Shown: piece after piece, positions 18,402 to 31,021 of the stretch
How positions within the stretch are numbered: the first letter of the stretch is position 1
Layout of the letters: each line of letters starts with the position of its first letter
Assembly (NCBI GenBank): GCA_017437285.1
Contig: JAFSBM010000142.1
Span: forward strand, 1-36,577
Length of the DNA: 36,577 nucleotides
From: Ruminococcus sp.
Lineage (GTDB): Bacteria > Bacillota > Clostridia > Oscillospirales > Ruminococcaceae
Reading direction: 5' to 3'
Made by a program: the position numbers and the translations under genes
Notes under the pieces: model-generated
What the model was told of the DNA's origin: nothing
Seen by the model: the letters and a program-made list of their open reading frames with translations, nothing else
Database searches by the model: none

Positions 18402-18428
18402 AACACCGCAACTGCGGTGTTTCTCTTT
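18402..18428. terminator. Bidirectional terminator between yqfD and the cellulase gene
   Basis: AACACCGCA (18402-18410) pairs with TGCGGTGTT (18413-18421). A-rich and T-rich flanks on both strands let it end both convergent genes. Confidence 0.8.
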
Positions 18429-20515
18429 TATTCAGCTCCTGAAATTATACCTTCAAGGAGTGTATTATTCCACTTCATTGACTTTCTGTCGATTATTCCG
18501 TAACCGTCCTCGCCCTTTGCCTTGTTGTTATCCCAGACAAAGCACTTAATTCCACGCTTTTTCGCCGATGATACGTAGTAATTGTAGTATTCCTTTCTTG
18601 TGGAATCGTCTGCAATGCCTACACAGCCGAATTCAGCGATAATAAGCGGAGTTCCCTTGTCAATAAACTTTTTCTTCATAGAGTCGAATTTCGCATCAAG
18701 TTCAGACTTTTCAGCCTGTCCGAATGTGGTGCTTTCTCCCGACGCAAATCGCCAAGGGGCATAATAATGAATCGACACAATGAGGTTTTTGTCGTTTGGA
18801 ACGATAACGTCATTCATTGCAACTTCCTCGGCACAAGCACCGTATGCCGAGATAATCAGCGTTCTTTCGGTATTTTTTCCGCCGCTGGCACGTACAGTAT
18901 CAACGAAATCCTGCACGTATTTATTCACAACAGCACGTTCTGCCGCAGTTCCGCCCATCCATTCGTTAGTACTTCCGATTGTTCGGGCTTCGTTCATTCC
19001 CTCGAAAATCAGCCTGTCACCGTAATCTTCGAAATAGTCGGCAACCTGAGACCAGATTTTCTTGTATTTCGCACTATCTCCCGAATATTCGGCTTCTGTG
19101 GGATTGAACCAGATATAGTCATCGTGGTGCATATTGATAATTACAAACAAATCGTTGTCGTAGGCGTAATCCACAACCTCTTTTACACGTCCGAGCCAGT
19201 CTTTCTGAATTACATCGCCATCCATATGCTCTCCCCAGGTTACAGGGATACGGATTGCGTTAAATCCTGCATCTTTGACGGATTTTATCAGCTCCACGTT
19301 AGTTTTTGGATTGCCCCAGCCAAGCTCCGTAGCAAGTCCAGTTCTGTTCGTATTGTAGCTTTCAAGGCTGTTTCCGAGATTCCAGCCCACCTTTATCTCC
19401 TTAACAATTTCAGCTGAACTTCTAAAGCCATAAGACTCCGATTCCACGTTATTCTGCGGTTTTTCCTCCTTGACAGCAGGCACTGCCTCTGTGGAATCAC
19501 CAAGGCTGTATTTAATTGAAACCGAATCAAGAGTAGCCTCTTCCTGCTCACTCCACCAGTAGCCCAAAATAAGCTCACCGTCCTCATTTGCATAATTTTT
19601 CGCCTGTGGTTCGATAATCCAAGTAAGAGAAATTTCTGAGCTGTCGGTGAATTCCGCCACATCGTTTGACATATATTTTCCCTTTGAGGACTCATAGCCG
19701 AATGCTCCTGTAAATTTACCGAAGCCGCCTCCCGATGAGATTTTATATGTAACCGACTGTGGAACTGCTCCCTTGGGAAGCGTATCTGTAGGAATTCTGA
19801 TTGTATTGTCCTCGCTGTTATGGTTAACACTTTTGCCAACTTCAACGTCAACTGTGCCGTCACAGGGAATTTCAGTTGTACGTGTGATATTGCATATAAC
19901 ATTTTCAATGCGTAAGCCTGAGGTTCCGCCCCACCAGTAGCCGAAAAGCACCTCTCCGTTAGCTGAAACATAATCGGAAACATCATCGGGGAGAGTCCAC
20001 GTAATCTCGCCGTATGTACCCTCTGTGGGAGCTGTGAAGTCACCTGACTGATACCAGCCCTCATCGGTAGCCGCAGGACAATCCTCGGTTACTGAGATAC
20101 CGCAGCCGCCCTTGAACTGCCCGATATTATAGCCGTCTGTGGAATATATTACAAAGGTGAACGAGTTGATTTTATCTCCCTCACGCATAAAATCCGCAAG
20201 GGGAAGTTTCAGCGTATTATCGCCGTTTGTACGTCCTATGACAGCATCTGCATTCTGCTGTATTCCAAGATTTGCGGTAACTGTTTCAACAGGGCTTACG
20301 TGCTTTGTGGGAGGCTCTGTAGTTGGCTCTGTGGGAGCAGTTTCAACCTTGTCCGCCGTTGTTTCGGAGCTGTCTGTTTTATCCGTCTTATTCCCCTTTT
20401 CATCTGTGGGAACAATGTCCGTATTCCCCGATTTTTCGGGAATTAACTTTCCGCTGAATGTTGCCGCAGCTGCAAGAAACAGTGCAGAAAATATAACAGC
20501 TAACTTTCTTTTCAT
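18428..20515 (-). CDS. Secreted GH5 endoglucanase with two repeated N-terminal modules
   Basis: A 695-residue exported beta-glucanase. The domains in order are a signal peptide (1-22), a Thr/Glu/Pro linker (about 30-75) and two related beta-rich modules (about 78-212 and 225-340). Each module carries GE-[VL]-[LI]-x-GYWW (GYWW at 192-195 and 318-321) and is probably carbohydrate-binding. After a short linker comes a GH5 catalytic domain (about 362-692), probably subfamily 4. The acid/base is E509 (FEGMNEA) and the nucleophile is E628 (IIAEFG); VGWNLGNSLE, IRIPVTWGEH and NMHHDD are also seen. It would cut cellulose or related beta-glucans outside the cell. No dockerin follows, so it is not anchored to a cellulosome in the classical way. 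The start is the ATG before KRKLAVIF, with AAAAGG upstream. Confidence 0.9.
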   Translation of the reverse strand: MKRKLAVIFSALFLAAAATFSGKLIPEKSGNTDIVPTDEKGNKTDKTDSSETTADKVETAPTEPTTEPPTKHVSPVETVTANLGIQQNADAVIGRTNGDNTLKLPLADFMREGDKINSFTFVIYSTDGYNIGQFKGGCGISVTEDCPAATDEGWYQSGDFTAPTEGTYGEITWTLPDDVSDYVSANGEVLFGYWWGGTSGLRIENVICNITRTTEIPCDGTVDVEVGKSVNHNSEDNTIRIPTDTLPKGAVPQSVTYKISSGGGFGKFTGAFGYESSKGKYMSNDVAEFTDSSEISLTWIIEPQAKNYANEDGELILGYWWSEQEEATLDSVSIKYSLGDSTEAVPAVKEEKPQNNVESESYGFRSSAEIVKEIKVGWNLGNSLESYNTNRTGLATELGWGNPKTNVELIKSVKDAGFNAIRIPVTWGEHMDGDVIQKDWLGRVKEVVDYAYDNDLFVIINMHHDDYIWFNPTEAEYSGDSAKYKKIWSQVADYFEDYGDRLIFEGMNEARTIGSTNEWMGGTAAERAVVNKYVQDFVDTVRASGGKNTERTLIISAYGACAEEVAMNDVIVPNDKNLIVSIHYYAPWRFASGESTTFGQAEKSELDAKFDSMKKKFIDKGTPLIIAEFGCVGIADDSTRKEYYNYYVSSAKKRGIKCFVWDNNKAKGEDGYGIIDRKSMKWNNTLLEGIISGAE

Positions 20516-20571
20516 TATATACATCCTTTTCAACTTGCCTTGAATTTCAAAGCAATAAAACTTCTCCGAGC

Positions 20572-20591
20572 GTATGCAAAAAACTGCATAC
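20572..20591 (-). promoter_or_regulatory. Possible operator at the cellulase transcription start
   Basis: GTATGCA-N6-TGCATAC is a perfect 7-bp inverted repeat that begins seven bases downstream of the -10 box, that is, at the expected transcription start. A repressor site or a 5' stabilising hairpin are both possible. Confidence 0.5.
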
Positions 20592-20597
20592 AAGCTG

Positions 20598-20626
20598 ATT
20601 ATAGCATATTTTCGCCAATTTTGCAA
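20598..20626 (-). promoter_or_regulatory. Cellulase promoter
   Basis: TTGCAA (20621-20626), 17-base spacer and TATAAT (20598-20603) on the minus strand. Confidence 0.7.
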
Positions 20627-21841: not shown

Positions 21842-22103
21842 AAAGCCGTTAGCTGTATTAAAGCCATTAGCCTTTAGCTGGCAGGTTAATTAAGAATTAT
21901 GGGCGGTAGTCTTAACGATTACCGTCTTTTCTTATATATTTAAAATGGGCGGATAATATCCGCCCCTACACAGATTGACGGTATACCGCAATATTCACCG
22001 CCCCCAATAGCTAATAGCTAAAGGCTAACGGCTAACGGCTTTGATATGGCTGACGGCTAATAGCTAACAGCTAAAAGCTAAAAGCTAACAGCTAACAACT
22101 AAA
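21842..22103. repeat. Composite repeat: facing heptamer arrays around GGGCGG modules
   Basis: The left array (21842-21881) is in the AGCNNTT sense. The right array (22006-22103) has about 13 units in the AANNGCT sense, with one break. Between them are GGGCGGTAGTCTTAACGATT (21901-21920) and a 57-bp module (21947-22003) that begins GGGCGGATAATATCCGCCC and ends ACCGCCC. The 57-bp module recurs at 24337-24393 with one difference. The 380-bp stretch between the carboxypeptidase and metG holds this repeat and the metG promoter, and no gene. Confidence 0.85.
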
Positions 22104-22126
22104 TGCAAAAAAATTTCTCAAAACAC

Positions 22127-22155
22127 GTGACAAACAGAGAAATATGTGGTATAAT
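22127..22155 (+). promoter_or_regulatory. metG promoter
   Basis: GTGACA (22127-22132), 17-base spacer and TATAAT (22150-22155). The leader of about 45 bases has only a small hairpin (GCTGA/TCAGC) and is too short for a T-box or SAM riboswitch. Confidence 0.65.
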
Positions 22156-22207
22156 AGAAGTGCTGATTTCATTCGTCAGCAAAAATTTCCAAAAGGAGCG
22201 ATTTTTT

Positions 22208-24193
22208 ATGTCAAAGAAACCCTTTTACATTACCACACCTATTTATTACCCCTCAGGTAATCCACATATCGGTCACAGCTACACAACTGTAGCCTGCGAC
22301 TCTATTGCACGTTTCAAGCGAATGCAGGGCTATGATGTAATGTTCCTCACAGGTACAGATGAGCATGGTCTGAAAATCGAGCAGAAAGCCGCTGAACAGG
22401 GCGTTACACCAAAGGAATACGTTGATGTTATCGTTGACAAATTCAAGAACCTCTGGCAGTATATGAATATTTCCTACGACAGATATATCCGTACAACTGA
22501 CGACTATCACGTTGAATCCGTGCAGAAGATTTTCAAGGCACTCTACGACAAGGGATACATCTACAAGGGCGAATATTCGGGAAAATACTGCACTCCCTGC
22601 GAAAGTTTCTGGACTGATTCACAGCTTGACGAAAACGGCTGCTGCCCTGAGTGTCACAGACCTGTGAAATTCGCCAAGGAGGAGGCATACTTCTTCAAGA
22701 TGTCACCCTTTGCAGAGCGTATTGAGAAACTTCTCCTTGAAACTGACTACCTCCGCCCAAAAACAAGAGCAATTGAGCTTGTAAATAACTTCATCAAACC
22801 AGGTCTGGAGGATTTGTGCGTATCAAGAACAACTTTCAAGTGGGGCGTTCCCGTTTCATTTGACGACAAACACGTTGTTTATGTATGGATTGACGCACTT
22901 TCCAACTACATCACAGCTCTCGGCTATATGAACGACAAGTATGACGATTTTGAAAAATACTGGAGTGCAGATGTTCATATGGTTGCAAAGGATATTATGC
23001 GATTCCACGCTATTATCTGGCCTGCAATGCTTATGGCACTTGACCTGCCGCTCCCTAAACACCTTGCAGTTCACGGCTATATCACAATGCAGAGCAAGGG
23101 CGGCGAAAGCGTTAAGATGTCAAAATCTCTCGGCAACGTGGTTGACCCATTTGTACTTGGCGAGCGTTACGGCTGTGACGCTATCAGATACCACATTCTC
23201 CGTGAAATGGCTCTCGGTGCTGACAGCCTTTTCTCCAACGAGATTATGATTAACCGTATCAACTCCGACCTTGCAAACGGCTTTGGAAACCTTGTTTCAC
23301 GTACCGTTGCAATGGCTGATAAATATTTCGGCGGAACTCTCCCCTCTGACCGTCAGGCTGACGCTCTCGACGAGGATTTCAAGAGTGTAGTTCTCGGTGC
23401 TGTATCAGCTGTTGAAGCTGCTATGGACGAAACAAAAATCAAGCAGGCTCTGGAGGAAATCTTCAAGGCTGTTGACCGTGCAAACAAGTATATTGACGAA
23501 ACTGAGCCGTGGAAGCTGGGCAAGGACGAGTCCGCAAAGGGCAGACTTGCAACGGTTCTCTACAATCTCCTTGACGGTATCAGAATTATTTCAACTCTCC
23601 TCAGCCCATTTATGCCTGCAACTATGCCTGAGGTATGGAAGCAGATTGGTGCAGCTGAGGCTGATGTGGCTTATGACAAGCTGTCTGTATTCGGAGTTCT
23701 CCCCGAAAATGTAACAGTATGCAAGGGTGCAATCCTGTTCCCAAGAATTGACGTTGACAAGGAAATTGAGGAACTCAACTCAATTATTCAGAAGAATATG
23801 GAAGCTGCACAGTCCAGCCTTTCCGCTGAGGAAAAGGGCGAGGCAGCTATGGAAATCCCCGAACTTGCTGAGGAAATCTCCATTGATGATTTTGCTAAGG
23901 TTGAGCTGAGATGTGCAAAAATCCTCTCTGCTGAAAAGGTGAAGAAGTCCGATAAGCTTCTCTGCTTACAGCTTGACGACGGAATGGGCGGCAGACAGGT
24001 AGTTTCGGGAATTGCCGAATACTACACTCCCGAGGAGCTTGTAGGAAAGAAAATTCAGCTTGTGGCAAATCTCAAGCCTGTAAAGCTCCGTGGTGTTGAA
24101 AGCTGCGGTATGATTTGTGCCTCTGATACTCCCGACGGTGTAAAGGTGCTGTTCCTTGATGACAGTATCCCCTGCGGTGCGAAGATTAGATAA
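22208..24193 (+). CDS. metG: Methionyl-tRNA synthetase
   Basis: Charges tRNA-Met in the cytosol. The 661-residue class I synthetase has PHIGHSYT (the HIGH box), a zinc knuckle with CTPC and CCPEC, the VKMSKSLGN box, an anticodon-binding helical domain, and a C-terminal OB-fold tRNA-binding domain (about 560-661, DFAKVELRCAKILSAEKVKK, then GVESCGMI). The start is the ATG at 22208, nine bases after AAGGAG; the frame is open further upstream, but that part contains the promoter. Flanked on both sides by composite heptamer repeats. Confidence 0.98.
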   Translation: MSKKPFYITTPIYYPSGNPHIGHSYTTVACDSIARFKRMQGYDVMFLTGTDEHGLKIEQKAAEQGVTPKEYVDVIVDKFKNLWQYMNISYDRYIRTTDDYHVESVQKIFKALYDKGYIYKGEYSGKYCTPCESFWTDSQLDENGCCPECHRPVKFAKEEAYFFKMSPFAERIEKLLLETDYLRPKTRAIELVNNFIKPGLEDLCVSRTTFKWGVPVSFDDKHVVYVWIDALSNYITALGYMNDKYDDFEKYWSADVHMVAKDIMRFHAIIWPAMLMALDLPLPKHLAVHGYITMQSKGGESVKMSKSLGNVVDPFVLGERYGCDAIRYHILREMALGADSLFSNEIMINRINSDLANGFGNLVSRTVAMADKYFGGTLPSDRQADALDEDFKSVVLGAVSAVEAAMDETKIKQALEEIFKAVDRANKYIDETEPWKLGKDESAKGRLATVLYNLLDGIRIISTLLSPFMPATMPEVWKQIGAAEADVAYDKLSVFGVLPENVTVCKGAILFPRIDVDKEIEELNSIIQKNMEAAQSSLSAEEKGEAAMEIPELAEEISIDDFAKVELRCAKILSAEKVKKSDKLLCLQLDDGMGGRQVVSGIAEYYTPEELVGKKIQLVANLKPVKLRGVESCGMICASDTPDGVKVLFLDDSIPCGAKIR

Positions 24194-24216
24194 TTCTTTA
24201 ATGCGTAATTATTAAA

Positions 24217-24448
24217 AAAGCTATTAGCTATTAGCTTTTAGCCTTTAGCTATGTGGGCGGCTGATATAATTTGTAATGACAGGTTGTACCGTGTCCGCAA
24301 TTTCGTTACGAAATTCAGTTTTTTTCATAATCTTACGGGCGGATAATATCCGCCCCTACACAGATTGACGGTATATCGCAATATTCACCGCCCACAATGG
24401 CTAATAGCTAATGGCTAAAGACTAACGGCTTTAATACGGCTAATCTCT
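24217..24448. repeat. Composite repeat between metG and a zinc-ribbon membrane protein gene
   Basis: The left array (24217-24251) is in the AGCNNTT sense and the right array (24396-24448) in the AANNGCT sense. The core holds AATTTCGTTACGAAATT (a near-perfect palindrome) and the 57-bp GGGCGGAT module (24337-24393). The palindrome has a counterpart at 28080-28096. No gene lies in 24194-24461. Confidence 0.85.
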
Positions 24449-24461
24449 AAAAGGTGCTTTT

Positions 24462-24941
24462 ATGGAAATTATAACATTGAAATGTAAAAATTGCAATAAA
24501 AAGCTGATGACATATATTCCCCCGAGTTCACGGAAATACAAAAGTCCCCTGAAAACCTGCAAGAAATGCGGCACAGAATACCTTGACCCACGCTGTCACG
24601 AAATAGCCGCTGAGGGACTGCCCCCCGATACATACAGCATCACATCTAATGTGATTATGGGCATAGTGGGAGGACTTATCCTGTGGAGAGGACTTTATCT
24701 GTTCACCGTTCATCAGCTGGGAACTTCCGAAAATATCCAATGGCTTTATCCCACAACTTTCACAGTAATGGGAATTTTCTGCATTCTCTTTGCAATTTAT
24801 CAGATAATCATAATTTTAACCGGCATAAAACGCAAAAAATTTGAAAAATTAAGGCAGGAATCGGAAGAACGACTGCAAGACTACAACTATGCGAAAACCC
24901 TTGTATCCCTTGGTTACAGCGTTCCCGAAGAATACCTGTAA
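24462..24941 (+). CDS. Membrane protein with N-terminal zinc ribbon, unknown
   Basis: A 159-residue protein of unknown family. The N-terminus has two CxxC pairs (C8/C11 and C33/C36), a small zinc ribbon. Two membrane segments follow (about 62-83 and 96-123), then a charged C-terminal helix (KRKKFEKLRQESEERLQDYN). Both ends would face the cytosol. The ATG follows AAAGGTG. It is 12 bases from the next gene, with which it probably forms a pair. Confidence 0.7.
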   Translation: MEIITLKCKNCNKKLMTYIPPSSRKYKSPLKTCKKCGTEYLDPRCHEIAAEGLPPDTYSITSNVIMGIVGGLILWRGLYLFTVHQLGTSENIQWLYPTTFTVMGIFCILFAIYQIIIILTGIKRKKFEKLRQESEERLQDYNYAKTLVSLGYSVPEEYL

Positions 24942-24953
24942 AAGGTGATTTAT

Positions 24954-25541
24954 ATGAGAAAAGGCTTTAAAATATTCTTAGGTGCAATTTTTGTACTGGC
25001 ACTTGTGATTCATCTTTTGATAATGCCAATTGTGAATCTCACCGACAAGGAAAATACTCACACAGTCACAATTAATGGAGCCGGAGAGCTTATTGTGGTT
25101 GAACATTCAATCAACGGCTTGATTCCTATGGGAAAGGATTATTATTACATAGGAATTAACGAGGAAAACGCTGAGGCTTACACTATAAAAGCTCCCAAAA
25201 AGTGGCTTGAAAAGAATTTTAATTCCGAACATACGGCTCTTACAGCAGGGGGACTTGAAATAACTGCCCTTGCAAAAAAACTTGACTATAAAATAGAGCA
25301 AGAGGTATATTCAACTCTTACATCAGTTGAGGGGATTACATATCCCATTTCAGCGTCATATTATCTTGACACAGGCTATGTTGCGAATTGTATTACAAGA
25401 CTTGCACTTTTCGCTGTATTGCTGTTTCTTGTGATTTCATTCCTCGTAATTCTGAAAAAAGGCACTCCCTCTGTATTTTCAAAAATACTGGCTATCATTG
25501 CCCTTGTGTGGTTGATTGTGATGCTTATAGTCACTGTATAA
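24954..25541 (+). CDS. Membrane protein with outer domain, unknown
   Basis: A 195-residue protein with an N-terminal membrane segment (about 7-27), a soluble outer part (about 30-142) that looks beta-rich, and two C-terminal membrane segments (about 147-168 and 174-194). I do not recognise the family. The ATG at 24954 is placed six bases after AAAGGTG; a GTG at 24945 overlaps that site and is rejected. Probably cotranscribed with the zinc-ribbon membrane protein; a heptamer array begins eight bases after its stop. Confidence 0.7.
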   Translation: MRKGFKIFLGAIFVLALVIHLLIMPIVNLTDKENTHTVTINGAGELIVVEHSINGLIPMGKDYYYIGINEENAEAYTIKAPKKWLEKNFNSEHTALTAGGLEITALAKKLDYKIEQEVYSTLTSVEGITYPISASYYLDTGYVANCITRLALFAVLLFLVISFLVILKKGTPSVFSKILAIIALVWLIVMLIVTV

Positions 25542-25548
25542 TTATAAA

Positions 25549-25600
25549 AAGCTTTTAGCTGTTAGCTTTTAGCCTTTAGCTATTTGGGCGGCTGATTTGT
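25549..25600. repeat. Half composite repeat (one array and GGGCGG)
   Basis: Five heptamers in the AGCNNTT sense (25549-25582), then TTTGGGCGGCTGAT, which matches the left part of the element at 24217. The facing right array is missing, so the element looks truncated. Confidence 0.75.
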
Positions 25601-25632
25601 TCAATTCATAATTAAGAAAGTGTAAAACCATA

Positions 25633-26043
25633 ATGAGGTATATTATATTAAGTGTGCTGCTATGTGCCAAAAATGCATATTGCCTAAAACCATCACTACA
25701 GTTTCTCCGTGCTGTCAAAGCAAATACATATATTCAGTGTCAGGCTGAAATCATTTGGGCATTTGGCACGTCGAATGGAACTTATTTCACAAGAAAATAT
25801 GCCAAGGCAGTCTATACAGTTGACGGGAAACAGATATTTGGCAAAATGATTTGTACATGTGATTTCAGAATAGATAAAGGCGATAAAGTTACTGTTATAT
25901 TTCCTAAAAGCAATCCGAAAATATTCGCCTTTTCAGAACAACATGTAAAAAACGCAGTTTTGACTTATAGCGTACTAACAGCAGTTTTCGCACTTTGTGC
26001 CATTTGTTTGACTGTTGTATACCTGCTTGCATTTTTTGAGTAA
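25633..26043 (+). CDS. Small membrane protein, possibly a shortened DUF3592 relative
   Basis: A 136-residue protein. The central part (YTVDGKQIFGKMICTCDFR, then IDKGDKVTVIFPKSNPKIF) resembles the soluble part of the DUF3592 protein at 3979-4542, and the C-terminus has a membrane segment (about 110-132). The N-terminal membrane part is short and poorly formed. The ATG at 25633 lacks a good ribosome site, and the gene begins about 30 bases after a truncated repeat. Its 5' end may therefore have been altered, and the gene could be a remnant. Confidence 0.5.
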   Translation: MRYIILSVLLCAKNAYCLKPSLQFLRAVKANTYIQCQAEIIWAFGTSNGTYFTRKYAKAVYTVDGKQIFGKMICTCDFRIDKGDKVTVIFPKSNPKIFAFSEQHVKNAVLTYSVLTAVFALCAICLTVVYLLAFFE

Positions 26044-26107
26044 ATGAATTGAAATTATTTATTATCTATCCATTATTAATACGACTAACTACATTGTAGT
26101 TTAGCAG

Positions 26108-26405
26108 ATTTTTAGGGCGGCGGATTAATTAAGAATTCAGAATTAAGAATTAAGAATTATGGGCGGTAGTCTTAACGATTGCCGAAAGGCTAATGGCTAA
26201 CAGCTAAAAGCTAAAGGCTTTAATACGGCTAATAGCTAATGGCTAAAGGCTAACGGCTTTAAAAAAGCTAAATGAAGAATTCAACAATTCACTTTTTCAC
26301 AGACACAAATTCTTGAATTCTTGAATTCTTCGTGCATATTATACAAAATCTTACACTCGCATTTGTGCAGATTTTTAGGGCGGCGGAAATTTTTTCTGCC
26401 GCTTA
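26108..26405. repeat. Composite repeat, left copy flanking the ExbB/ExbD-like operon
   Basis: It contains AT-rich GAATTAAGAATT units, GGGCGGTAGTCTTAACGATT (26161-26180), a heptamer array (26185-26262), then a module of GAATTC-rich sequence ending in GGGCGGCGG near 26392. The last 150 bp recur in inverted orientation at 28259-28405. The 437-bp stretch 26044-26480 holds only this repeat and the operon promoter. Confidence 0.85.
26256..26349 (+). repeat. Inverted repeat arm 1 (94 bp)
   Basis: Starts GCTTTAAAAAAGC and ends ATTATACAAAAT. Its reverse complement is identical to 28312-28405 over all 94 bases by eye; weaker similarity continues to 26405. Confidence 0.9.
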
Positions 26406-26433
26406 TTTTTATTCGGTATTTTGTCGAAAACTA

Positions 26434-26462
26434 TTGCAAATTCTCGGATTTTGCTGTATAAT
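26434..26462 (+). promoter_or_regulatory. Promoter of the ExbB/ExbD-like operon
   Basis: TTGCAA (26434-26439), 17-base spacer and TATAAT (26457-26462). The transcript would start about 12 bases before the ATG, just enough to include the GAGGTG ribosome site. It lies just inside the left repeat arm. Confidence 0.65.
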
Positions 26463-26480
26463 TGTATATGAGGTGATTTA

Positions 26481-26969
26481 ATGGAAATTTTAGCAAAATT
26501 CAAAGAGGGTTTCTGGGGATTTGACTGGATAATCCTCCTTGTTGCAGTTATAAATATTCTGCTTTTCCTTGAAACAAAGCGTATGAATGGCGAAATATCG
26601 GGAAATCTCAAAGAACTCGAAAAACAGGAAAATCTCCTTGCCGCCAATAAGGCATATTCGCAGTTCACTAAACGATACACAATTTTCCTGACGATTATCT
26701 CAATTTTCCCTCTGCTTGGTATGCTCGGCACAGTATGGTCACTCCTGAGCCTTGACATCACGGTAATTGACGACAATCTGAAATCCAACTTCTTTGCGGC
26801 TCTGACTTCCACAGCATGGGGAATTATCTGTGCTGTTGGCTTTAAACTGGCAAATTCTCTTATTTCCACATCTGTTGAAAATACAATCCAAAAGCTTGAA
26901 ACGCTTATAAATAAGTTTGAAGATATGGAAATATCCTCGGAAAATCAAAAAAGCAGGGTTGAAATATGA
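26481..26969 (+). CDS. MotA/TolQ/ExbB-like proton channel subunit
   Basis: A 162-residue membrane protein with three segments (about 12-31, 66-90 and 103-128), as in ExbB and TolQ. The two conserved channel helices are visible: FPLLGMLGTVWSLL, with T84 at the position of the pore Thr, and FFAALTSTAWGIICAV, with T111. Residues 33-62 are charged and would form the cytosolic loop, and the C-terminal helix is coiled-coil-like. Known members use the proton gradient to drive a partner in the cell envelope. The GAGGTG ribosome site precedes the ATG. The stop overlaps the start of the next gene (ATGA), as in exbB-exbD pairs. No TonB or outer-membrane receptor is nearby. Confidence 0.82.
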   Translation: MEILAKFKEGFWGFDWIILLVAVINILLFLETKRMNGEISGNLKELEKQENLLAANKAYSQFTKRYTIFLTIISIFPLLGMLGTVWSLLSLDITVIDDNLKSNFFAALTSTAWGIICAVGFKLANSLISTSVENTIQKLETLINKFEDMEISSENQKSRVEI

Positions 26970-27526
26970 AAAAAAGAGAGATATTTCTTGACTTCACATC
27001 TCTCCTTGATGTAATTATGATTATTCTTTTCTTCTTCATTCTGTTCAGCACCTTTGAAATTGATGAAGCTACAAAGGCGGCAAATCAGACAAAAGCTGAA
27101 TATGAAACTAAAGTTGATGAAGCTGAGGCTGTGCTTGCTGAATACCAAAAAGAAAAGGACAGGCTTTTGAGCATTGACAAAAATGCTGTTAAAAATCAGG
27201 AGGCACTTCTCCAATATCAAGGGCAGATTTTAACAATTAATCTCTATGATAAATTCGATGATGATACCCTTTACATCAATATCAAAAAAGGCGAAAACAA
27301 ATTAGACGAATTTATTTACACAGAGTCTGTTGATATGAAAACAAAATTGACGGATACCATTAAAATGACAGAGTTCACAAATGACGATGTTATTATTTGT
27401 AATTTAACATATAACGGCGATGATTTATACTCCGCCAATGCCGTTAAACAAATAGAAAAATCTGTAAATGATTTGCAAAAGGAATACGAAAATTTCTATT
27501 TTGCGGCAATTAATATTTCAAAGTGA
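26966..27526 (+). CDS. ExbD/TolR-like channel partner
   Basis: A 186-residue protein with one membrane segment near the N-terminus (FTSLLDVIMIILFFFILFS). D15 stands where the essential Asp of ExbD, TolR and MotB lies. A charged coiled coil follows (about 37-75), longer than in ExbD. The outer domain is beta-alpha (ILTINLYDKFDDDTLYINIK; DDVIICNLTYNGDDLYSAN, then a helix and FYFAAINIS) and fits the ExbD/TolR outer fold. No OmpA-type peptidoglycan-binding domain is present. Translation is coupled to the channel gene. Confidence 0.78.
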   Translation: MKKREIFLDFTSLLDVIMIILFFFILFSTFEIDEATKAANQTKAEYETKVDEAEAVLAEYQKEKDRLLSIDKNAVKNQEALLQYQGQILTINLYDKFDDDTLYINIKKGENKLDEFIYTESVDMKTKLTDTIKMTEFTNDDVIICNLTYNGDDLYSANAVKQIEKSVNDLQKEYENFYFAAINISK

Positions 27527-27537
27527 GGTAGATTATT

Positions 27538-27954
27538 ATGGGAAAAGAAAAGAAATCATCTTCCGGTTTCGGCTTTGCAGCTGTAATAGCCGCAGGTGCT
27601 TTGCTATTATCGCAGAAAAGCTGCGGTACAGAAATCGGAATAGGCAGAGAGGGCTTAACAGGAACTGATACAGGTGTTGTTGTACAAGCCACTAATCCAA
27701 ATAACAGCCAAGCAGAAACACCTGAAATTACATCACCTCAGCAGATAACAGTTGAAATCACAATTGACGGCAGGGATTACATCTGCAATAACAAGAAAAT
27801 GACTCTCAATGAATTAATGGCAGAGCTGAATTCTGTGGACACATCGGCAGAAATATACATTACCTGCGAAAGCTCAGCCACGGTAAATGCCAAGGAAAGC
27901 CTTGATGCTGAACTGCAATCAAAGGGATTTTATAATATTATTTATAAAAGCTAA
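27538..27954 (+). CDS. Membrane-anchored protein with ExbD-like outer domain
   Basis: A 138-residue protein with a short N-terminal anchor (about 11-27, FGFAAVIAAGALLLSQ), a Thr/Asn/Pro-rich linker (about 40-72) and a C-terminal domain. The C-terminal domain (ITVEITIDGRDYICNNKKMT, LNELMAEL, EIYITCESSATVNAKESLDA, GFYNIIY) follows the order of the ExbD/TolR outer domain. The usual channel Asp is missing from its membrane segment, so it could not itself be the ion-conducting partner. I infer that it is a third component that contacts the ExbD-like protein outside. GAGG precedes the ATG and overlaps the previous stop. Confidence 0.65.
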   Translation: MGKEKKSSSGFGFAAVIAAGALLLSQKSCGTEIGIGREGLTGTDTGVVVQATNPNNSQAETPEITSPQQITVEITIDGRDYICNNKKMTLNELMAELNSVDTSAEIYITCESSATVNAKESLDAELQSKGFYNIIYKS

Positions 27955-27960
27955 CAGCCT

Positions 27961-28606
27961 TAAATGAGCCGTTAGCTATTAGCTTTTAGCCTTTAGCTAT
28001 GTGGGCGGCAGTCTTAACGATTGCCGTCCATTTTTTGCACGATGATATAATTCGTAGGGACACAGCGTGCTGTGTCCGCAATTTCGGTACGAAATTCAGT
28101 TTTTTCAACAATCTCGGGCGGATAATATCCGCCCCTACACAGAATTACGGTATACAGCTGATTATGTAAATACACAAAAAATGACGGCAGAAAAAATTCC
28201 GTCGTCCTAAAAAGCTAACGGCTAAAGGCTAACGGCTAAAAAGCTTTTATACAAAAAAAAGCGGCAGAAATTAATCCGCCGCCCTTAAATCTGCACAAAT
28301 GCAGGTATAATATTTTGTATAATATGCACGAAGAATTCAAGAATTCAAGAATTTGTGTCTGTGAAAAAGTGAATTGTTGAATTCTTCATTTAGCTTTTTT
28401 AAAGCTTTTAGCTTTTAGCTATTAGCCTTTAGCTTTTCGGCAATGCGTAATTATTTTAAAGAACCTATAGCTAATGGCTAAAGGCTGACGGCTAACGGCT
28501 TTAATAAAGCTAAAGGCTAAAGGCTTTTATACAAAATTGGACGACAGAAAATATTTCCGCCGCCCATAATTCTGAATTCTTAATTAATCCACTGCTAAAG
28601 GCTAAA
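27961..28606. repeat. Nested composite repeats downstream of the ExbB/ExbD-like operon
   Basis: This 652-bp gene-free stretch is made of repeats. Heptamer arrays lie at about 27965-27999, 28210-28245, 28398-28436 and 28467-28529. GGGCGG(C/T)AGTCTTAACGATT (about 28003-28022) is followed by a perfect hairpin GGACACAGC/GCTGTGTCC (about 28058-28077) and the palindrome AATTTCGGTACGAAATT. The GGGCGGAT module (28116-28158, partial) and the inverted copy of the 26256-26405 module come next. At the end is CCCATAATTCTGAATTC, the mirror of 26128-26165. Several elements appear to have inserted into each other. Confidence 0.85.
28312..28405 (-). repeat. Inverted repeat arm 2 (94 bp)
   Basis: Reverse complement of 26256-26349 with no difference seen; similarity continues to 28259 with a few changes. 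The 1.9 kb between the arms holds the three-gene operon. Confidence 0.9.
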
Positions 28607-31021
28607 TCAGCCGAGAACTACAGCAATCTCGTTTACATCGGCAAGCTTGTCAGCAGCGATGTAATTTCCGTCAATAGCCTCGCCATTGAGAGTTACGGAC
28701 TTAACACCGCTTTCAACGTGTGCGGAGTTATCCACAACGATATTGAGTTTCTTTCCTCTGAACATCTTTTTAATCTTAAAGCTGTCCCAAGCAGAGGGGA
28801 TAGAGGGAGAAATTGCAAGACCGTCAGCGTCGGGACGCATACCGCAGATACCCTCAACGCAGCCAACCATAACAGTTGAAGCTGTACCTGTGAGCCAATG
28901 AACGTGTGAACGTCCCTCGTATGGAGATGCCTTACTCTCTGTGAACTGACCGTGTACATATGGTTCCATAACACGGATTTCAGCCTTGTCGTTCATAGCA
29001 GCAGGTGAGGACTCCATAAAGTACTCAAATGCACGGTTGCCGTGTCCCATAAGAGCCTCAGCAAGAATAAGCCAGCCCTGTGACTGTGAGAAGATACCGC
29101 CGTTTTCCTTAGTATCGAGGTTGAACACCTGCATTAACGCACCCTTGAAGTGGTGATACTTATAAGGTGGGTCAAGAAGCTTTGCACCGTAAGGTGTGTT
29201 GAGAATTCTGTAAACGCTGTCCATAGCCTTTTCAGCCTGCTCCTCAGACGCAAAGCGTGAAATTACGCTCCAAGACTGGGGATTGAGCCACATATTAGCC
29301 TCTGGGTCATTCTTAGCACCGACAATATCGCCGTTTTCACGAATTCCACGGATAAATCTATCCTCGTCCCAGCACTTTTCGAGAGCATCAGCAAGCTTTG
29401 CCTGTACCTCGTCAATATATGCGATATAGTCTGTATCATTTTTAAGTACAGCCATTTCCTTGATAGCTGTCATAGCGTAGTAAAGCTGGAATGCAACGAA
29501 TGTTGACTCGCCCTTTGCACCAAGACGCAGACAGTCGTTCCAGTCAGCGTGAAGTCCTGCAGGCATATCGTGGTCGCCAAGACGCTCCATAGAGAAGCGA
29601 ATAGCGTTCTTGAGATGCTCGTAAACAGTAGCTTCGCCGCCGCCCTCCTCGGCATATGTGATAACCTCGTCAAGGAATGACTTGTTGCCGCTTTCGCCGA
29701 TATACTTCATAATTGTGGGGAACAGCCAGAGAGCGTCGTCCGCACGGTATGAGGGGTGACCTGTTTCCTTAGCATATACGCTGTTTTCATCGTTCTCATC
29801 GGGACAAGTTTCGTGACCTGCATCGTGAGTGAACTTTACAAGGGGAAGTCCGCCGCCGTTGCTTACCTGAGCAGAAAGCATAAAGCGGATTTTTTCAGCA
29901 GCCATTTCGGGGTCAAGGTGGATAATACCCTGAATATCCTGAACTGTATCACGGTAGCCGTAACCATTTCTAAGACCGCAGTAAATGAAAGAAGCTGCTC
30001 TTGACCAGATGAAAGTGATAAAGCACTGGTAAGCGTTCCATACGTTAATCATATTGTTGAACTCGTCTGAGGGAGTTTCAACGGAGAAGTTTGAAAGCTG
30101 GCTGTGCCAGTAGTCCTTTAACTGCTGAACTTCCTCGTCAACCTTGCCTGCTGTCTTGTATTCGTTGAGAATAGCAGTAGCCTCGGCATCGGTTTTCTGT
30201 CCCATAATATAGATGAATTCCTTAGTTTCGCCTGGAGCAAGAGTAATATCGCTCTGAAGCGCACCGCAGGAATTGGAGTTATAGTTCATAACACCGTCAC
30301 ACTTGCCGTTTTCAACAGCAATAGGATTTGAGAAAGTTCTGTAAGGTCCGATGAAGTTGCTGAGAGAGCCGTTATAGCCTGTGATAGGCTGTCCAACCAT
30401 ACCGAAAAATCTCTCGCTGCCGTTGTAGCCGTTTTCGTCAAAGCCTGTATTTTCATTCATATGCTGAATGATTTTGTTTTCCTCAAAGCTTGTACGTGTG
30501 ATGAAAAGTGTGTACTGGAGGTTAATCTGGTCCTGTTCGTAGTTAGGCTCGTTTGTGAATTCAACAAAGCCGAAAACAGAGAGTTTTCTCTCCTTGTCTG
30601 AGTTATTTGTAACCTTTGCACGCCATACCTCATATGTCTTGCCGTAGGGAACATAATATGTAACCTCTGACTTTATGTCGGTATACTCAGCAGAAATTAC
30701 AGTATAAGCTGTACCGTGGCGGCACTCGGACTTATACTGGTCAAGGGGCTTGCCTACAGGCTGCCATGAAGCTGACCAATAGTCGTTAGCCTCGTTATCT
30801 CTGATGTAGATATAACGTCCCGGGAGAGCCATATCTGAGTTGAAACGGAAACGTGATACACGGCCGTTTGCACCTGATTTTACAAAGCTGTAGCCTGCTG
30901 CGTTATTGGAAATCATAGCACCGTATTCGGGGTCACCGAGGTAGTTTGCCCAAGGTGCAGGCGTTGCAGGGTTTGTAATGACATATTCCTTGTTCGCAAG
31001 GTCGAAATGTCCGTAATTCAT
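28607..31021 (-). CDS. Cellobiose phosphorylase (GH94)
   Basis: Cytosolic enzyme that splits cellobiose with phosphate into alpha-glucose-1-phosphate and glucose. The 804-residue length and N-terminus (HFDLANKEYVITNPATPAPW) match clostridial cellobiose phosphorylases of about 810 residues. The N-terminal beta domain (about 1-310) is followed by the alpha-barrel. GLRNGYGYRDTVQDIQGI (349-366) and the catalytic-acid segment HADWNDCLRL (491-500) are intact, as is GRSHVHWLTGTAS near the end. No signal peptide. AAAGGAG precedes the ATG at 31021. It pairs in function with the secreted GH5 enzyme at 18.4 kb. Confidence 0.95.
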   Translation of the reverse strand: MNYGHFDLANKEYVITNPATPAPWANYLGDPEYGAMISNNAAGYSFVKSGANGRVSRFRFNSDMALPGRYIYIRDNEANDYWSASWQPVGKPLDQYKSECRHGTAYTVISAEYTDIKSEVTYYVPYGKTYEVWRAKVTNNSDKERKLSVFGFVEFTNEPNYEQDQINLQYTLFITRTSFEENKIIQHMNENTGFDENGYNGSERFFGMVGQPITGYNGSLSNFIGPYRTFSNPIAVENGKCDGVMNYNSNSCGALQSDITLAPGETKEFIYIMGQKTDAEATAILNEYKTAGKVDEEVQQLKDYWHSQLSNFSVETPSDEFNNMINVWNAYQCFITFIWSRAASFIYCGLRNGYGYRDTVQDIQGIIHLDPEMAAEKIRFMLSAQVSNGGGLPLVKFTHDAGHETCPDENDENSVYAKETGHPSYRADDALWLFPTIMKYIGESGNKSFLDEVITYAEEGGGEATVYEHLKNAIRFSMERLGDHDMPAGLHADWNDCLRLGAKGESTFVAFQLYYAMTAIKEMAVLKNDTDYIAYIDEVQAKLADALEKCWDEDRFIRGIRENGDIVGAKNDPEANMWLNPQSWSVISRFASEEQAEKAMDSVYRILNTPYGAKLLDPPYKYHHFKGALMQVFNLDTKENGGIFSQSQGWLILAEALMGHGNRAFEYFMESSPAAMNDKAEIRVMEPYVHGQFTESKASPYEGRSHVHWLTGTASTVMVGCVEGICGMRPDADGLAISPSIPSAWDSFKIKKMFRGKKLNIVVDNSAHVESGVKSVTLNGEAIDGNYIAADKLADVNEIAVVLG

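Follow-up and report, generated by a model that had tools for sequence, protein, structure and literature searches.

A conserved three-gene ExbB/ExbD-type operon in Ruminococcus genomes without outer-membrane markers: a candidate envelope motor in which ExbD appears to be divided over two proteins

The ExbBD and TolQR complexes are best known as energisers of the outer membrane. In the Zorya system, ZorB carries a membrane Asp and ZorA has a long tail. The essential residues of ExbBD have been given as Asp25, Thr148 and Thr181 (PMC12905483), and proteins of this kind have been grouped with the 'generic ion transporters', a structurally heterogeneous set that includes members of unknown function (PMC12505986). 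Tethered vWA transducers adjoin TolQ homologues, and these transducers bear either an SHLS motif or an Asp helix (PMC12204202). A 2022 review considered that tests are still needed of whether Ton-system orthologues work in Gram-positive bacteria, and in what way (PMC9389320), and a 2025 study judged Ton systems in monoderms (Clostridia) likely to be non-functional (PMC12204202). Here we describe three adjacent genes, called B, D and T, in a Ruminococcus sp. contig. We use 'the window' for the whole stretch of DNA that was analysed, which is one entire contig of 36577 bp from a genome of 4.1 Mb in 235 contigs. Among the matches listed from the open-licence PubMed Central (PMC) literature, mostly titles and abstract openings, there was no account of a B-D-T operon, and none of the titles and abstract openings pairing Ruminococcus with ExbB seems to cover one.

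All three genes lie on the forward (+) strand. Gene B (26481..26969; 162 residues) encodes a short ExbB/TolQ-type channel protein. Gene D (26966..27526; 186 residues), for an ExbD/TolR-type axle, overlaps B by 4 nt (ATGA), and gene T (27538..27954; 138 residues) encodes a membrane anchor followed by a Gly/acidic linker and an ExbD-like outer domain. The three open reading frames and the B/D overlap had been described in an earlier reading of the letters alone (the original prediction) and were confirmed at these positions. We estimate at roughly 0.5 the probability that B-D-T is an envelope motor powered by protons, belonging to the 5:2 class of ExbBD and TolQR and acting in bacteria without an outer membrane. 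The parts of this reading differ in strength. That this is an ion-driven motor of the ExbBD class is highly probable; that T transmits the force is a suggestion falling a little short of even odds. Still more tentative is the idea of a motor class native to monoderms, with ExbD split into an axle (D) and a tethered, sometimes duplicated, outer domain (T), and with force applied to the wall or surface.

The three genes form a conserved unit. The B profile matched 54 of 100 sampled genus genomes at E ≤ 0.001, including that of the window, and 39 of the 55 of high quality. Loci were fetched from 40 of the 53 other genomes with a match (13 were not fetched), and in 40/40 of these D and T lay 3′ of B. 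In all, D and T were found together at 57 loci (the window, L003, L024–L063, L082–L093, L095, L111 and L112), with B adjoining them at 56. As 44 of the 57 were either the starting point or derived from searches with B, the unbiased figure comes from the loci reached through D (L082–L093 and L095), where B was adjacent in 12 of 13. Since the same order and spacing is shared by dozens of genomes and extends to other families, the arrangement is beyond chance: B-D-T is a fixed, widespread, lineage-specific operon and not a relic.

Beyond the genus, the D profile matched 15 of 148 genomes of the wider family, 12 of them strongly (E ≤ 1e-10), and strong full-length matches to T (E ≤ 1e-12) were confined to the same 12. 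At E ≤ 1e-4 the T profile matched 31 of the 148, the other 19 being weak matches that mostly covered the helix and linker. At the level of the order, D was matched in 4 of 197 genomes, one of which lies outside the family (G391, locus L095). The scans at the level of the phylum and class scored up to about eight candidates per genome, so that their match counts are lower bounds. The D profile found at least two of 398 genomes in the phylum, the window's own and one with an ordinary ExbB-ExbD pair (L096). The B profile found at least five of 391 in the class, namely the window's own, two with B-D-T in other families (L111 and L112) and two with MotA-like proteins. Several profile matches were set aside: a cellulase-like reading frame (G240) and a match for which no reading frame was found (G108) were unrelated, a third was an ordinary ExbB-ExbD (G793), and two were MotA-like proteins of 270 residues (G972 and G1117).

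The compact arrangement seen in the window is general. The spacing between B and D was −14 to +9 nt in 40/40 loci, and that between D and T was −8 to +42 nt in 39/40, with 164 nt in the remaining one (L056). In the window, a predicted sigma-A-type promoter (TTGCAA-N17-TATAAT; 26434..26462, + strand) ends 18 bp 5′ of the start codon of B. A sigma-A-type element was present 10–45 bp 5′ of B in 35/40 loci, against a mean of 0.16 and a maximum of 2 in 50 shuffles. For B, D and T alike, the ratio of non-synonymous to synonymous divergence (dN/dS) was 0.01–0.33 wherever it could be computed among eleven species pairs, of which ten were chosen as close pairs; two single values were saturated (one for D, one for T) and several synonymous divergences (dS) exceeded 1. 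All three proteins are under purifying selection.

We compared the window with L003, a Ruminococcus sp. metagenome-assembled genome that is the nearest named record found. Between the two, B is 98% identical with a dS of 0.04, and the dS of D and of T is about 1. Over positions 22088–26966 of the window, the stretches from metG to B are 93–98% identical to L003, and those farther away are 73–77% identical. Because of this step in identity, and of the high dS of D and T, the tract is best read as a recombination tract bordering near the B/D junction. Rapid or diversifying evolution of D and T had been considered and was rejected, as the drop in identity fits such a tract.

The sequences of the three proteins were examined in alignments of B (A1, 40 rows, omitting L042, which is close to a contig edge, and L043) and of D and T (A2 and A3, 41 rows each, omitting L042); loci L082–L095, L111 and L112 came later and lie outside these alignments. 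B of the window matched PF01618 (MotA_ExbB) with an E-value of 2.7e-11 and 43.7 bits, above the curated cut-off of 22.9, and on this profile evidence it belongs to the MotA/TolQ/ExbB proton channel family. The best NCBIfam match was TolQ, far under its cut-off (E 1e-5, 25 of 221 bits). P77, T84 and T111 were invariant (40/40) and align with P141, T148 and T181 of E. coli ExbB, so that the residues expected of the motor are kept throughout. Across the aligned set, the B proteins were 132–242 residues long. Alignment with ExbB indicates three membrane helices; the simple hydropathy rule with which we called helices gives two for B of the window and 2–5 across the family.

D matched PF02472 with an E-value of 1.2e-4, and its 22.6 bits lie under the cut-off of 25.4; the alignment extends to residue 118. 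Among the aligned D proteins, 22/41 matched at E ≤ 0.01. The presumed proton-binding residue D15 (codon 27008..27010, + strand) lies inside a predicted membrane helix at residues 10–28 and is Asp in 41/41. The original prediction of an ExbB/TolQ-type channel with an ExbD/TolR-type partner that keeps the key Asp is thus upheld, and the profile searches proposed with it gave a divided outcome, B scoring over the PF01618 cut-off and D below that of PF02472. When D was aligned with four ExbD/TolR proteins using hhalign, the probability was 82%, confined to 30 columns of the membrane segment that carries the Asp.

Outside the membrane, D looks different. Its outer domain (27197..27523, + strand) shows no detectable similarity to ExbD and appears specific to this family. 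Isolated D outer halves matched the ExbD model of Pfam in 0/9 cases tried (eight from outside the window's clade), and the same portion of E. coli ExbD, used as a positive control, scored 5e-15. We also built a profile from the outer halves of four real ExbD/TolR proteins, applied at E ≤ 0.05 with reversed sequences as the control; it matched 0/41 D outer halves and 0/41 reversed ones. An ExbD fold for this domain had seemed plausible by eye and was rejected, given zero profile support. By sequence, D found only chance-level matches among solved structures. After the helix, a heptad score exceeded a z of 1.5 against shuffles in 23/41 D proteins (mean z 2.1). The corresponding stretch of the window's D (residues 33–76; 27062..27193, + strand) may form a coiled-coil shaft, its own z being 1.1. 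D therefore looks like an ion-binding axle joined to a family-specific head.

The ExbD-type outer domain for which D gave no signal is detectable on T. The hydropathy rule called a helix in 39/41 T proteins, none of the 39 with an Asp or Glu in it; T of the window and T of L003 missed the helix threshold. Full-length T proteins matched TIGR02804 (ExbD_2) in 18/41 cases at E ≤ 0.1 (best 2.4e-8) and PF02472 in 14/41 at the same threshold (best 5e-4), and when ten were scanned singly against PF02472 two matched, with 16.4 and 20.3 bits. When outer domains were isolated, TIGR02804 still matched 5/10, with a best value of 8.2e-7, and these five belong to a single synteny group. The match covers positions 47–119 of the 121 in the model, i.e. 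along the ExbD outer domain. The four-sequence profile matched 23/41 T outer domains (best 4.8e-5), including some outside that synteny group, L049, L051 and L063 among them. An ExbD-type domain is thus present on T in part of the family. T of the window itself gave an E-value of 0.041 with TIGR02804 and no Pfam family above cut-off, and its outer domain (residues 67–138; 27736..27951, + strand) matched nothing in isolation; its assignment follows from homology to its relatives in alignment A3. As with D, searches of T against solved structures by sequence returned only chance-level matches.

The original prediction of a third anchored protein, bearing an outer domain like that of ExbD but without the Asp, agrees with these results. 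It had called this a second ExbD outer domain, and here only half of the claim stood: the domain is ExbD-like in the relatives of T, and D itself shows none. Because T scores in 23/41 cases and D in 0/41, ExbD appears to be split into an axle on D and an outer domain on T. In other words, T looks like the outer domain of ExbD with a tether to itself.

In five loci (L086, L089, L092, L093 and L095) a second T-like gene stands in tandem with the first. That of L095 begins with a Cys-containing, signal-like sequence, possibly a lipoprotein signal (by eye). Two versions occur in one genome (G194; L088 and L092): the standard trio and a divergent B-D-T-T′ set of four genes.

We then asked what kind of envelope surrounds these proteins. 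Omp85 was matched at E ≤ 0.001 in 0/20 carrier genomes, including that of the window, and in 7/14 controls; the TonB-receptor Plug was matched at the same threshold in 0/20 carriers and 3/14 controls. These 20 carriers thus show no outer-membrane markers, as the original prediction of a monoderm host would have it, and carriers seem to have no outer membrane. In the window's own genome, B alone scored above the MotA_ExbB cut-off. TonB, Pal and OmpA had been said to be absent nearby, and neither these nor a defence partner was seen among the neighbours scanned or read by eye, which comprise part of the reading frames of the window. Nor were TolB or Pal noticed among the neighbours read, with no profile search aimed at them.

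These observations suggest the following mechanism, built by analogy with ExbBD and TolQR. A pentamer of B would surround the membrane helices of two D proteins, a stoichiometry taken over from the described complexes. Protons would cross by way of D15 of D and Thr84 and Thr111 of B, and their passage would make D turn or rock against B. The motion would be relayed outward by D to its family-specific head, through a helical shaft in much of the family. T, presumably held by its own Asp-free helix and a flexible Gly/acidic linker, would supply the outer domain of ExbD type that is not seen on D and may dock onto the head of D. It could then pass the motion on to the wall or to a surface structure, in the position that TonB or TolA takes in Gram-negative bacteria.

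A number of observations weigh against this reading. The fold of T, the 5:2 assembly and the contact between T and D are argued from sequence and analogy, and the head of D, an outer half without a recognised family, may not bind T at all. The predicted pore of B is not a copy of that of E. coli ExbB, because the position matching E176 is Glu in 0/40 B proteins. The ExbD signal of T is below curated cut-offs in the scores obtained and strongest in one clade. Reversed T domains scored with the four-sequence profile in 5/41 cases (best 1.2e-3), so the signal is partly compositional. Profile-profile comparison of T with the four ExbD/TolR proteins was weak (probability 18%, E 1.4e-3); taken separately, one clade reached a probability of 27% and the remaining members 11%. 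The SHLS docking motif of TonB and TolA, searched as a spaced pattern, occurred in 0/41 T proteins. The trio is missing from roughly half of the genus and is therefore dispensable. At one locus B lies in two frames (L043), and at another (L084, 8700–10334) D and T have no adjoining B and an aroQ-like gene (by eye) directly 5′. No neighbour indicates the load. Finally, the sequence data are equally compatible with a pure channel or sensor.

That last alternative is a gated ion channel or envelope sensor, in which T would sense wall or surface stress and B-D would pass protons for signalling without mechanical work. The small, tethered, linker-rich T is sensor-like, and the load-bearing partner that a motor would need is not visible. 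We nevertheless regard this alternative as rather unlikely, since the described 5:2 members are treated as generators of force or torque (PMC9389320, PMC12905483) and the heptad pattern of D suggests mechanical reach. An anti-phage motor is less likely again. Here a Zorya-like membrane sensor would signal phage attack by ion flow, with T as a substitute effector. The patchy presence of the trio in the genus would suit such a role, as would the matches of the ZorB model to 9/41 D proteins (best 8e-4) and of ZorA models to a few of the 40 B proteins (best 1.9e-3). These scores are not well above background, so that an identification as Zorya was rejected, and the coiled-coil models LmuB, JetC and PbeC match D at least as well as the ZorB model, which looks like chance. 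PADLOC gave nothing for B or T of the window, and D matched only a candidate family (PDC-M24A, 5.3e-5) common to 2/41 D proteins, which we treated as a chance match. The recurrent neighbours are housekeeping genes that keep their positions (U32 peptidase, MltG-like, aroB and others) rather than a defence island. Two scans of viral contigs, with the B and D profiles, returned no relative, and a phage-borne origin was likewise rejected.

In the genus, PilB/PilT-type ATPases occur in 88/100 genomes and dockerins in 100/100, so that the trio might drive surface motility or a pilus (gliding-like), or assist type IV pili or the cellulosome. These traits are near-universal and the trio is not, so they do not track one another. 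The families that recur beside the trio, for which ten neighbours were scanned with Pfam, showed no gene noticed as belonging to a pilus or cellulosome; we consider this reading improbable. A machine working between the mother-cell and forespore membranes during sporulation is very improbable. A Spo0A gene lies about 300 bp 5′ of B in L050, L054 and L061 (by Pfam for L061, by BLAST cluster for the others) and within about 10 kb of the trio in six loci of another context. The promoter, however, is of the sigma-A type, and sigma-E, F, G, H and K patterns 5′ of B were near shuffle level. The least credible alternative is that these are vestigial or horizontally acquired Ton-type genes without function in a monoderm. 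Such a view would accord with the published judgement on Ton systems of monoderm Clostridia (PMC12204202). PF02472 was also matched at E ≤ 1e-5 in 0/99 class genomes, though this threshold misses the D of the trio itself and so informs on ordinary ExbD only. The receptor plug was not matched in the 20 carriers, the motor residues are invariant, the promoter element is conserved and the operon is stable. The dN/dS, well under 1 for all three proteins in each computable pair, largely refutes this view.

The trio was found in at least three genomic contexts, and each of these is constant across its own group of genomes. Pfam names for the neighbouring families were taken from single representatives. 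In the first context (10 loci compared), an LPG_synthase_TM gene lies 5′, and a U32 peptidase gene and an MltG-like gene lie 3′. In the second (6 loci), aroB and two genes named aroA and aroC by eye are all 3′, and in the third (5 loci) an amidohydrolase gene and a decarboxylase-family gene are 3′. Within these three groups the position is kept while the identity of B falls to 50%, 61% and 64%. Besides the trio itself, families recurring in more than one context include Spo0A, present at nine loci, and a number of large ones, none of them constant. A recurring signalling partner had been suspected in genes of ~570–730 residues that are often found about 3 kb 5′; a GGDEF motif was present in only one of six examined, so they are not one family.

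A terminator-like stem-loop lies 3′ of T in the window (28001..28031, + strand). Its basis is weak, as the region holds five terminator-like sites against a shuffle mean of 2.3, and similar repeats occur nearby. We also noted a 147-nt inverted repeat, 93% complementary, that brackets the trio (26228–26374 and 28287–28433) and is composed of AGCTAAAGGCTAACGGC-type intergenic repeats recurrent in the region. The cassette could invert in this genome, or could have come along with the repeats. Near the trio are a Glyco_hydro_94 gene (cellobiose-phosphorylase-like, by Pfam; 28607–31021) and a gene for a secreted, cellulase-like protein (by eye; 18428–20626), a pattern as in a fibre degrader.

How, then, does the putative B-D-T motor compare with the systems already described? 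With the flagellar stator MotAB it shares a partner with an Asp helix, and MotA was the best match to the B profile among solved structures (2.3e-4, by sequence). It differs in that B would have three rather than four membrane helices, that the MotB/OmpA family is absent among the matches listed for D, and that the window's genome holds no further protein above the MotA_ExbB cut-off. Zorya ZorAB is likewise a motor pair, with the weak model matches already given, but B lacks the long tail of ZorA at any of the lengths observed. Zorya effectors (ZorC/D, ZorE) were not noticed among the recurrent neighbours, which were not scanned against PADLOC. The vWA transducers resemble the proposed motor in that a TolQ-type pentamer serves an extracytoplasmic partner other than TonB; they carry vWA rather than an ExbD-type domain, and T has neither of the two features, SHLS or Asp helix, of which they bear one (PMC12204202).

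The Tol and Ton systems resemble the trio in layout. TolQ-TolR-TolA of E. coli has the same three-gene order, with a tethered transducer encoded third. It differs in that T has ~120–190 residues whereas TolA of E. coli has 421, in the heptad-rich stretch and distinct head of D, and in that Omp85 was not matched in 20 carriers. With ExbB-ExbD-TonB the trio shares the ExbB/TolQ core of B, with its equivalents of Thr148 and Thr181, and the ExbD-type Asp helix of D. T also resembles TonB in being a third partner with a one-helix tether, a linker and a small outer domain. The differences are that T is without SHLS, that carriers have neither Plug nor Omp85 (0/20 each), and that B is without the E176 equivalent. 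Because there is no receptor plug, no Omp85 and no SHLS, we do not file B-D-T as Ton or Tol. A conserved, selected operon in a genus without outer-membrane markers makes the question of Ton orthologues in Gram-positive bacteria testable in a three-gene unit. The ExbD-type outer domain was detected on T instead of D, and an ExbD divided in this way over two proteins would be a natural dissection of the driving from the transmitting part. If this reading is true, the 5:2 motor family would gain an additional type of load, the wall or surface, and a distinct transducer.

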